Below, one piece after another: positions 18,307-21,249 of a stretch of DNA of 64,000 nt. This stretch comes from Bradyrhizobium sp. G127 (GTDB lineage: Bacteria; Pseudomonadota; Alphaproteobacteria; Rhizobiales; Xanthobacteraceae). The notes below the pieces were generated by a model, which made no database searches, was not told the DNA's origin, and saw only the letters and a list, made by a program, of their open reading frames with translations. Each line of letters opens with the position of its first letter. Within the stretch, counting starts at the first letter, position 1. The position numbers and the translations under genes are program-made. The stretch is taken from positions 744,001 through 808,000 of the forward strand of contig NZ_JAKFGN010000001.1 of assembly GCF_021502575.1 (NCBI RefSeq), in the 5' to 3' direction.

Positions 18307-18756
18307 TCAGGCCGAGGCCGCCCTGGCCGGCTTGTATTTCGCCAGTTCCGGGCCGATCCGGTCGCTCATTTGCGTGCTTAGCGCCTGCAAGGCCTTGAAA
18401 GGACGGACCATCACCTCGAATTCGATGATCTTGCCGCTGGCGTCGAATTTCACCAGATCGATCCCCTTCAGGTCCAGTTCGCCGATATTGGCGCTGAATT
18501 CCAGCGCCACATCGTGCGATCCGGCCACGAAAGTGCGGTGATAGCGGAAGTTCTCGAAAATCTGCACCACCGCGCCGAGGATCAGCAGGCTGGCCGGACG
18601 TCCCGGAATGGGCAGATGGACGAACGGCGAGCGGAACACCGTGGTTTCCGCAAAAAGCGGCCGCAGCACATCGACATTCCGGCTTTCGACAAAACGATGC
18701 CAGTTTTTGAGAGTCTCCTGCGCCGAAGGTGCAAGTCCCGGTGCCTCTGTTGTCAT
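18307..18756 (-). CDS. SnoaL/NTF2-like fold protein of unknown function
   Basis: 149 residues from the ATG at 18756, preceded by AGGGAG at good spacing; an upstream in-frame ATG at 18774 overlaps this site. It resembles the NTF2-like superfamily: an N-terminal helix (ETLKNWHRFVESRNVDVLRPLFAETTVFRSPF), then alternating strands, including FVAGSHDVALEFSANIGELDLKGIDLVKFDASGKIIEFEVMVRP. Proteins of this fold are small-ligand binders, isomerases or ester hydrolases. No catalytic set can be assigned and there is no signal peptide. Function unknown. Confidence 0.6.
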   Translation of the reverse strand: MTTEAPGLAPSAQETLKNWHRFVESRNVDVLRPLFAETTVFRSPFVHLPIPGRPASLLILGAVVQIFENFRYHRTFVAGSHDVALEFSANIGELDLKGIDLVKFDASGKIIEFEVMVRPFKALQALSTQMSDRIGPELAKYKPARAASA

Positions 18757-18860
18757 CGCGTTCTCCCTGTCCACATTGTCTGCCGGATCGTCGTGTCCGA
18801 TACTGCCTCATAGTCCTGTACCGGCGATCCCGGTCAAGGAAACATGCAAGCGAGCCTGTC

Positions 18861-19192: not shown

Positions 19193-20914
19193 ATGGCGGC
19201 AGATACAGTCGAAGTGGAAAGCGCGCCGTCGGCGTCCGCGATGCAGGCCTTTCCGCGATATGAGCAGACATTCCCGGCCCTGACCGGCGCCGAGATCGAC
19301 CGCATGCGCCGGTTCGGTGAGGTTCGGCGCTATAAGGACGGCGAGCGGCTGTTCGAGACCGGCAAGCCCGGTCCGGGCATGTTCGTCGTGCTCTCGGGGC
19401 ACGTCGCCGTCGCTCAGCGCGACGGCATGGGTCATGTCACGCCGGTGATCGAGCAGGGCCCAGGCCAGTTTCTGGCGGAGGTCGGACAGCTCTCAGGCCG
19501 GCAAGCCCTGGTGGACGGCACCGCCGAGGGTGATGTGGAAACGCTGCTCATTCCATCGGACAGTCTGCGCGCGCTGCTGGTGGCCGAAGCTGATCTCGGG
19601 GAGCGCATCATGCGCGCTCTGATCCTTCGCCGCGTCAGTCTGATTGAGGGCGGCGTCGGCGGCCCGGTGCTGATCGGGTCACCGGCGCTGGGCGATGTGG
19701 TGCGGCTTCAGGGCTTTCTGTCCCGCAACGGTCACCCCTATCATCTGCTTGATCCGGCCACTGACAAGGACGCCGCCGACCTGATCGCGCGCTATTCGCC
19801 GTCGCCGGCCGACCTGCCGCTGGTGGTGTGTCCCGACGGAACAGTGCTGCGCAATCCGCCGGAAACCGAACTCGCCTACGCGATGGGAATGATCGGCGGC
19901 AGCGTCAAGGACAAGCTCTACGACGTCGCCATCGTCGGTGGTGGTCCCGCCGGGCTGGCTACGGCGGTGTATGCGGCGTCCGAGGGGTTGACGGTGGCGG
20001 TGCTCGACGCGCGCCATTTCGGCGGTCAGGCGGGCGCCAGCGCGCGCATCGAAAACTACCTCGGGTTTCCGACCGGCATCTCCGGGCAGGCGCTGGCCGG
20101 GCGCGCTTATACTCAGGCACAGAAATTCGGCGCGGACATGATGATTCCAGTCGAAGCCCGCTCGCTCGATTGCAGCAAAAGCGATGGCGCATTCGGCCTT
20201 GCCACCGAATGCGGGCATTTCCTGAAGGCGAAATCTATCGTTGTTGCCAGCGGCGCGCGTTACCGGCGGCCGGTCATCGCGAATCTCGACAGGTTCGAGG
20301 GACGTGGCGTCTGGTATTGGGCATCGCCGATCGAAGGACGGCTGTGCGCCCAGCAGGACGTTATTCTGGTTGGCGGGGGCAATTCCGCCGGACAGGCCGC
20401 GGTGTTTCTGTCCGGACACGCCAAGCGCGTCCGCATGATGATCCGCAGCGGCGGTCTGGCCGACAGCATGTCGCGCTACCTGATAGATCGCATCATGGCG
20501 ACGCCAAATATCGAACTTATGATCAACACCGAGATCGTGGAGCTGGACGGCGCGGCGGACGGCGGGCTCGATCGTGTTCGCTGGCGCAACCGCCGCACCG
20601 GCATTGAGACCGAGGAAGAGGTTCGCAATGTCTTTCTGTTTGTGGGGGCCGATCCGGCCACCGCATGGCTGAAGGGGTGCGGTGTCGAACTTGATCGCAC
20701 GGGCTTCGTCGTGACCGGCTCACAATGCGAGGAAGGCAAGCCGGTGTCAGGTCTTGAGACGTCGGTACCGGGTGTCTTCGCGGTCGGCGATGTGCGCGCC
20801 GGTTCGGTCAAGCGCGTCGGCGGCGCGATTGGCGAGGGCGCGCAGGTGGTGGCCGCGCTGCACGGGTTTCTTAGTGCCAAACCGGCACCGGTTGTCCAGA
20901 CGGCGGAATACTGA
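19193..20914 (+). CDS. Cyclic-nucleotide-binding / thioredoxin-reductase-like fusion lacking the CxxC
   Basis: 573 residues in three parts. Residues about 25-150 are a Crp-like cNMP-binding fold (RRYKDGERLFETGKPGPGMFVVLSG, QFLAEVGQLSGRQALVDGTAE). Residues about 157-225 look like a thioredoxin/glutaredoxin fold without cysteines. Residues about 240-565 are a thioredoxin-reductase-like FAD/NAD(P)H oxidoreductase with VAIVGGGPAG, ILVGGGNSAG and GVFAVGDVR. Where true thioredoxin reductases carry CATC, this protein has YWASPIE (about 375-381), so it cannot run normal dithiol chemistry. The UBP zinc-finger gene follows by 32 bases. Similar fusions exist in other bacteria; the physiological reaction is unknown to me. 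Confidence 0.8.
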   Translation: MAADTVEVESAPSASAMQAFPRYEQTFPALTGAEIDRMRRFGEVRRYKDGERLFETGKPGPGMFVVLSGHVAVAQRDGMGHVTPVIEQGPGQFLAEVGQLSGRQALVDGTAEGDVETLLIPSDSLRALLVAEADLGERIMRALILRRVSLIEGGVGGPVLIGSPALGDVVRLQGFLSRNGHPYHLLDPATDKDAADLIARYSPSPADLPLVVCPDGTVLRNPPETELAYAMGMIGGSVKDKLYDVAIVGGGPAGLATAVYAASEGLTVAVLDARHFGGQAGASARIENYLGFPTGISGQALAGRAYTQAQKFGADMMIPVEARSLDCSKSDGAFGLATECGHFLKAKSIVVASGARYRRPVIANLDRFEGRGVWYWASPIEGRLCAQQDVILVGGGNSAGQAAVFLSGHAKRVRMMIRSGGLADSMSRYLIDRIMATPNIELMINTEIVELDGAADGGLDRVRWRNRRTGIETEEEVRNVFLFVGADPATAWLKGCGVELDRTGFVVTGSQCEEGKPVSGLETSVPGVFAVGDVRAGSVKRVGGAIGEGAQVVAALHGFLSAKPAPVVQTAEY

Positions 20915-20946
20915 AGCGCACAGCGCTCGCATCGAAAGGCGGTCAC

Positions 20947-21249
20947 ATGCCCTGCAAGCACATCGCCGATATCCGGGATGTCACGCCGAGCGCTCTCGGA
21001 TGCGAGGAGTGCCTGAAGACCGGCGATGTCTGGCTTCATCTGCGGATTTGTCGGACCTGCGGCCATGTCGGCTGCTGTGACGATTCGCCCAACAAGCATG
21101 CGACGAAACATTTCCACGCCACTCAACATCCCGTTATCGAAGGTTATGATCCGCCGGAGGGCTGGGGCTGGTGCTATATCGATCGGGTCATGTTCGATCT
21201 GTCGAACCGGAAGACGCCGCACGACGGTCCTATCCCGCGCTATTACTAA
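20947..21249 (+). CDS. UBP-type zinc-finger protein
   Basis: 100 residues. The full ligand set of the ubiquitin-C-terminus-binding ZnF-UBP domain is visible: C3-H5, C19-x2-C22, C35-x2-C38-x4-C43, then H51-x3-H55-x5-H61, with the usual HLRICRTCGHVGCCD core. In eukaryotes this domain grips the free diglycine tail of ubiquitin; the bacterial role is not established. It lies 32 bases behind the cNMP/TrxR-like fusion on the same strand, so the two probably work together. A protein-tail or redox-linked adaptor role is only a guess. Confidence 0.8.
   Translation: MPCKHIADIRDVTPSALGCEECLKTGDVWLHLRICRTCGHVGCCDDSPNKHATKHFHATQHPVIEGYDPPEGWGWCYIDRVMFDLSNRKTPHDGPIPRYY

Follow-up and report, generated by a model that had tools for sequence, protein, structure and literature searches.

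The closest described relatives of the flavoprotein discussed in this article are the AhpF proteins, in which a thioredoxin-fold part is followed by a thioredoxin reductase-like (TrxR-like) FAD/NAD(P)H part and a redox-active CxxC motif is present in both. Here we analysed a 64,000-nucleotide stretch of DNA from Bradyrhizobium sp. G127 (assembly GCF_021502575.1, contig NZ_JAKFGN010000001.1, positions 744,001 to 808,000 of the forward strand), referred to below as the window, where a gene with the same two parts (gene A) is followed by a gene for a stand-alone UBP-type zinc finger (gene B; Table 1). The AhpF structures 1hyu and 4o5q were the top Foldseek matches of the gene A model, but gene A is unlike AhpF in having a cyclic-nucleotide-binding (CNB) domain, or in some homologues a receiver (REC) domain, in front and CxxC in neither part. 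A and B form a real, conserved pair, and we propose, with a probability of roughly 0.4, that both belong to a single redox-signalling module, the zinc finger acting as the docking partner.

The finger encoded by gene B belongs to the same family, with the same ligands, as the zf-UBP domains of USP5, USP16, HDAC6 and USP20/USP33. According to the excerpted text of PMC13376213, the zf-UBP domain of USP20 binds internal basic motifs, an acidic residue contacting the [KR] of [KR]xxL[NED], and the majority of the other zf-UBP domains bind the C-terminus of ubiquitin. Bacterial zf-UBP mini-proteins are listed without function in the excerpt of PMC2602986, and the solved structure 2ida, which comes from the same protein family as B, is listed as 'Hypothetical protein' with no function given. 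All parts of the locus belong to known families; searches of the open-access literature gave no paper on the A-B pair or on the receiver/kinase arrangement described below, and the excerpts of PMC2602986, PMC13376213, PMC1779556 and PMC4287336 do not describe the pair. The initial annotation knew of no described function for the pair.

The TrxR-like fold and the FAD and NAD(P)H motifs are retained in gene A, with a Pfam match to Pyr_redox_2 of 114.3 bits (residues 243-549), and it was clearly seen that the reductase module has lost its disulfide, both points as initially annotated. The CxxC-D-G of the solved reductases aligns with W-A-S-P-I-E-G in gene A. Conservation was followed in 150 full-length homologue rows, corresponding to 123 distinct genes (27 of the rows are genes fetched under two locus ids), and in 24 non-redundant homologues below 70% identity; a CxxC at the TrxR active site was present in none of these (0/150, 0/123 and 0/24 respectively). 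A C..C elsewhere occurs in six of the 150 rows, at least 60 residues from this site. The reductase part of A showed no other pair of cysteines that could take over; its single near-invariant cysteine is Cys385, kept in 23/24 non-redundant homologues, 146/150 rows and 119/123 distinct genes. It is replaced by Ile in L102, by Thr in L151 and L178 and by Val in L174, which rules it out as an absolutely required residue. Glu381 is invariant in all 24 non-redundant homologues and aligns with the catalytic Asp of TrxR. The middle domain had been annotated as thioredoxin-like and cysteine-free; its strand and helix order is indeed thioredoxin-like in the AF2 (AlphaFold2) model and CxxC is absent, an assignment that rests on the secondary structure of this model and on alignment, the VIA-align comparison having covered mainly residues 237-565, but the domain does contain a cysteine, Cys213.

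Comparison with the curated families leads to the same picture. Gene A scored 207.1 bits against thioredoxin-disulfide reductase (TIGR01292), under the cut-off of 343.45, and 158.4 bits against the AhpF profile, under the cut-off of 502.9. It is thus unlike the low-molecular-weight thioredoxin reductases in both score and cysteines, and another protein of the Bradyrhizobium sp. G127 genome lies above the TrxR cut-off with 412.6 bits; on these three grounds an ordinary thioredoxin reductase role of A was ruled out. The TrxR-like ferredoxin-NADP reductases FNR1 and FNR2 of Bacillus cereus (6gar, 8c16) match with 64 and 70 bits, compared with 145 bits for the best TrxR, and A differs from them by its two extra domains and by the conserved Glu381 and Cys385. 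Close and distant homologues of A are recorded alike as 'cyclic nucleotide-binding domain-containing thioredoxin-disulfide reductase', a name implying disulfide reduction and nucleotide binding, and A lacks key residues for both. B-type proteins are recorded as 'UBP-type zinc finger domain-containing protein'.

The N-terminal domain of A passes the Pfam cut-off for cNMP_binding (PF00027) with 50.6 bits against 27.5. The phosphate-binding Arg of the cyclic-nucleotide pocket (Arg333 in PKA RI-alpha) aligns with Ala105 in gene A. This Arg is absent from all 20 of the 24 non-redundant homologues that have a CNB domain, most of which have E or D where A has its pocket Glu (Glu96). Because the phosphate Arg is missing we speak of a CNB-fold and not of a cAMP-binding domain, and the residues at this position suggest that the usual pocket is unlikely to recognise cyclic nucleotides, which weakens the second-messenger sensing proposed in the initial annotation.

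Gene B passes the Pfam cut-off for zf-UBP (PF02148; 51.1 bits against 22.7) and matches 2ida with 205.6 bits across residues 1-99. The zf-UBP alignment contained 137 rows, one of them gene B itself and the other 136 distinct finger domains taken from the loci. The ligands of two zinc sites (C19, C22, C43, H51 and C35, C38, H55, H61) are invariant in its non-redundant set of 24, so that the stand-alone finger with its zinc ligands is confirmed. A putative third site is formed by C3, H5, C76 and D79; five of the 137 aligned rows lack both C76 and D79 and the same five also lack C3 and H5, L095 has H5, C76 and D79 but not C3, and in four rows the C3/H5 stretch had been cut off by trimming. This Asp as the probable ligand of a third zinc distinguishes B from USP5, USP16 and HDAC6, as do the extra invariant Cys44 and the loss of the tail-pocket Arg. 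Residues 43-45 are C-C-D in 137/137 rows and residue 47 is Ser in 136/137, and two positions after the zinc-ligand Cys every row has Asp, compared with Arg in USP16 (C-G-R). It is this Arg which holds the Gly-Gly end in USP5 and HDAC6, and its replacement makes the annotated recognition of free Gly-Gly tails improbable. The C-terminus of A could also be ruled out as such a ligand of B, since none of the 150 A rows ends in Gly-Gly. Asp45 of B and Glu55 of USP20 both stand two residues past the ligand Cys; their putative equivalence is given by spacing, because the HMMER alignment leaves this USP20 loop gapped.

Three Pseudomonadota genome samples (phylum, 249 genomes; class, 387; Burkholderiales, 300) were searched with PF02148. 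Ten genomes of the phylum sample were positive and an A homologue adjoined the finger in 10/10 loci, the window locus included. The class sample gave ten positive genomes with nine new loci, eight of them linked, one of these with an intervening gene, and the Burkholderiales sample gave 12 genomes with 13 loci, six directly linked and two arranged as enzyme, kinase, finger. Altogether 26 of the 32 zf-UBP loci were linked to an A homologue in varying gene orders, so the neighbourhood seen in the window is by no means rare elsewhere. The adjacency exceeds chance expectation, with a hypergeometric probability of 1e-10 by genome and 3e-6 by genus, both uncorrected for ancestry. A further scan covered the best 80 of 576 zf-UBP loci, mostly from Bradyrhizobium, Afipia, Tardiphaga and Mesorhizobium and therefore not independent, and A adjoined the finger in 71 of these best 80. 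Among 20 plasmid or phage loci chosen by hand (the plasmid search gave 87 records), ten were linked within about 1.5 kb; the evidence from Actinomycetota, Deinococcota, Cyanobacteriota, Bacteroidota and Gemmatimonadota comes from plasmid records hand-picked for variety. No natural A-B fusion was found in the loci covered; of the five long zf-UBP open reading frames, one was an antiporter fusion (L105) and the other four were probably extended frames.

The order A-B prevailed among the 102 two-gene rows (95 rows, with B-A in six and opposite orientation in one), also when ten twice-fetched loci were counted once (86, five and one of 92), and the 16 linked class and Burkholderiales loci were divided into eight A-B, four B-A and four opposite. 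The linked state switches at least 11 times on the tree built from 42 A sequences. Such repeated gain or loss, together with the changed gene order, favours a functional tie over mere co-inheritance. Damaged copies were also met: in L053 (8373-8723), which belongs to the nine loci of the best 80 without an adjacent A, an intact zf-UBP gene lies beside a decayed copy of A, a 117-residue open reading frame keeping only its two ends, and in L011 gene A is split across two frames.

A second form of the module, missed by the initial annotation, was recognized in which a REC domain replaces the CNB domain at the N-terminus of the enzyme. Eight enzymes, chosen because they match the Tsukamurella protein over its full length or show the enzyme-kinase order, all had this architecture (Nocardia L104, Tsukamurella L108, Streptomyces L173, Deinococcus L174, Caballeronia L175, Nostoc L176, and L201 and L202 from Burkholderiales), and thus the REC form spans Actinomycetota, Deinococcota, one cyanobacterium and Burkholderiales. 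The neighbouring histidine kinases contained both cNMP_binding and HATPase_c in 7/7 cases scanned (L108, L173, L174, two in L175, and L188 and L191, which come from the L201 and L202 genomes); the L104 kinase was inspected by eye. The order receiver-enzyme, CNB-kinase, zf-UBP is found in Streptomyces, Tsukamurella and two Burkholderiales genomes, with 4-base gene overlaps in the Streptomyces and Tsukamurella units. The presence of the CNB domain either on the enzyme or on the neighbouring kinase gives good grounds for regarding it as an input to this enzyme, and CNB sensing seems to be wired to the flavoprotein in cis or by a phosphorelay, which would run from the CNB-kinase to the REC-enzyme. 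A third form without either sensor domain occurs in L096, L102, L109 and L177.

According to the proposed mechanism the CNB-fold sensor would control an AhpF-like NAD(P)H/FAD enzyme, to which it is fused in Bradyrhizobium sp. G127 and which it would reach in the other form through the histidine kinase and the REC domain. With both disulfide relays of AhpF lost, in the thioredoxin-fold as well as in the TrxR part, the flavin of A might function as a switch responding to NAD(P)H or redox state, or as a direct electron donor to a non-thioredoxin acceptor. Protein B would be expected to form a complex with A and to bind, in its zf-UBP groove, a peptide on a target protein, where Asp45, like Glu55 in USP20, might contact a basic residue and not the carboxylate of a C-terminal Gly-Gly; by analogy with USP20, docking may occur in such another mode. 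We offer only tentatively the more complete picture of a dedicated bacterial redox-signalling system, with CNB input in cis or by phosphorelay, a disulfide-free AhpF-like flavoprotein as output domain, and a zf-UBP domain reading a basic peptide mark on its targets in a USP20-like manner without ubiquitin. If true, it would give a function to proteins that are called thioredoxin-disulfide reductases without having the cysteines needed for such a reaction, and a reason for a domain of ubiquitin biology in bacteria. Two-component responses in which a receiver domain has a flavoprotein as its output would be unusual. With the C-C-D-x-S motif and with Glu381/Cys385 as starting points, only two proteins are needed for a direct test of the idea, and the small one has a solved relative.

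Several observations weigh against a common module. Six of the 32 pooled loci are unlinked (L182, L190, L192, L193, L194 and L199), as are nine of the best 80 (six of these nine genomes carry A elsewhere, and in one of the six, G253, this A is adjoined by another finger, in L147) and ten of the 20 plasmid or phage loci. A was present in 29 of the 249 phylum-sample genomes (E 1e-50), 19 of which have no zf-UBP, which makes B an optional companion of A. No zf-UBP adjoins the REC-enzyme and the kinase in Deinococcus aetherius (L174) and Caballeronia (L175), and five kinase CNB domains, inspected by eye, are without the usual cAMP pocket motif. On a Deinococcus ficus plasmid (L105:1653-3716) Na_H_Exchanger, TrkA_N and zf-UBP are combined in a single chain, therefore the finger serves partners besides A. 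TrkA_N domains bind NAD, and this fusion is compatible with a finger whose partners are, more generally, NAD(P)H-linked regulators. In its NAD(P)H loop A has a single invariant Arg (Arg418) in place of the Arg cluster of TrxR, and this leaves the co-substrate uncertain. The spacing-based match of Asp45 and Glu55 is a further weak point, and so is the tail pocket of B, which was compared by sequence only, the AF2 model having a pLDDT of 39 and not being used.

Alternatively, the zinc finger could itself be the redox target: the vicinal Cys43-Cys44 would oxidise, zinc would be released and docking would stop, and the flavoprotein would restore or sense this state by its flavin or by Cys385. The invariance of Cys44 in 137 rows at a position occupied by Gly in USP16, the retention of Cys385 and the thiol-redox neighbours (trxA in Rhodococcus, DsbA-like genes beside A in Gloeocapsa and beside the zf-UBP of L192) point in this direction. 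Nevertheless Cys385 is equally kept in the A of genomes without zf-UBP, L102 has lost it in spite of an adjoining zf-UBP, and Cys44 is also kept in unlinked fingers, so we consider this explanation doubtful. YpdA-type reductases work without CxxC, and A might similarly be a thioredoxin or low-molecular-weight-thiol reductase using the one cysteine. This would agree with Cys385 and with Glu381 at the place of the catalytic Asp, and a match to the YpdA family was obtained, but its 61.5 bits are far under the cut-off of 339.9; taking into account the four homologues without Cys385 and the separate TrxR-passing protein of the same genome, such a role is quite unlikely.

Nor do we favour, and find somewhat more doubtful than a redox-sensitive finger, that the genes are mere neighbours which form no common complex and were inherited or moved jointly as members of a stress-gene cluster. 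Synteny of the chain A, B, hydrolase, murA, hisD is largely kept in Afipia and Bradyrhizobium and an EthD gene takes the place of B in some relatives, as would be expected in this case, but the linkage recurs with other neighbours and orders in Rhizobiaceae, Sphingomonadales, Burkholderiales, Actinomycetota and Gemmatimonadota. The coupling of cAMP or cGMP sensing to the recognition of Gly-Gly-type free C-terminal tails would be the straightforward reading of two domains that both exceed their Pfam cut-offs, given the ubiquitin-tail binding of most other zf-UBP domains (PMC13376213, excerpt). It is very improbable in view of the missing phosphate Arg, the Asp of the tail pocket in all 137 rows and the lack of A homologues ending in Gly-Gly. 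Our preference remains with a redox-signalling module of flavoprotein and docking finger.

Table 1. Features of the A-B locus, with positions counted from the first letter of the window
Feature	Position	Strand	Basis
Gene A, 573 residues: CNB fold, glutaredoxin-like domain and TrxR-like flavoprotein without CxxC	19193..20914	+	Open reading frame, Pfam, alignment
cNMP_binding (CNB-fold) domain, residues 45-129; phosphate-Arg position is Ala105	19325..19579	+	Pfam, alignment
Glutaredoxin/thioredoxin-like domain, residues ~158-235, without CxxC, with Cys213	19664..19897	+	Secondary structure of AF2 model, alignment
TrxR-like FAD/NAD(P)H module, residues 243-549	19919..20839	+	Pfam, alignment, structure comparison
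Y375-WASPI-E381-GRL-C385, site of the lost CxxC-D	20315..20347	+	Alignment
Intergenic gap between A and B, 32 bases, genes on the same strand	20915..20946	+	Open reading frame coordinates
Gene B, 100 residues, stand-alone zf-UBP, relative of solved 2ida	20947..21249	+	Open reading frame, Pfam, structure-sequence search
C43-C44-D45-x-S47 in the zinc finger (C-G-R in USP16)	21073..21087	+	Alignment

The wider gene neighbourhood points to protein or thiol stress in a part of the loci: clpB, cbpM and trxA are found in Rhodococcus, DsbA-like proteins in the two loci mentioned above, and a mycothiol-dependent dehydrogenase in Tsukamurella. In other loci the neighbours are unrelated to such stress. 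A role in anti-phage defence was rejected, as PADLOC matched neither A nor B, nor the kinase and enzyme of Streptomyces. In a Burkholderiales genome (L204:4295-5195) zf-UBP is immediately preceded by a DsbA-like gene, with no A in the 10 kb read. The zf-UBP domain was also seen on the Tunturiibacter phage Tunturi_3 (L097:3965-4315) and on two IMG/VR contigs (L091, L092), with no A in the stretch read, and in L025 a Na_H_Exchanger gene adjoins a stand-alone zf-UBP.

In Bradyrhizobium relatives an EthD-domain gene stands behind A in place of zf-UBP (L155:7798-8103, also L156 and L157; the Pfam assignment was made for L155 only). Members of this gene cluster are also present in six loci that have zf-UBP, and EthD and zf-UBP are combined in protein P0103. 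Upstream of A, on the - strand of the window (18307-18774), there is a SnoaL-like gene whose Pfam score of 22.1 bits falls short of the cut-off of 27, and a similar gene is present in 18 scanned loci. In Rhizobium leguminosarum (L094:6237-7325) a gene annotated as a cyclic nucleotide-gated ion channel adjoins the zf-UBP/flavoprotein pair.
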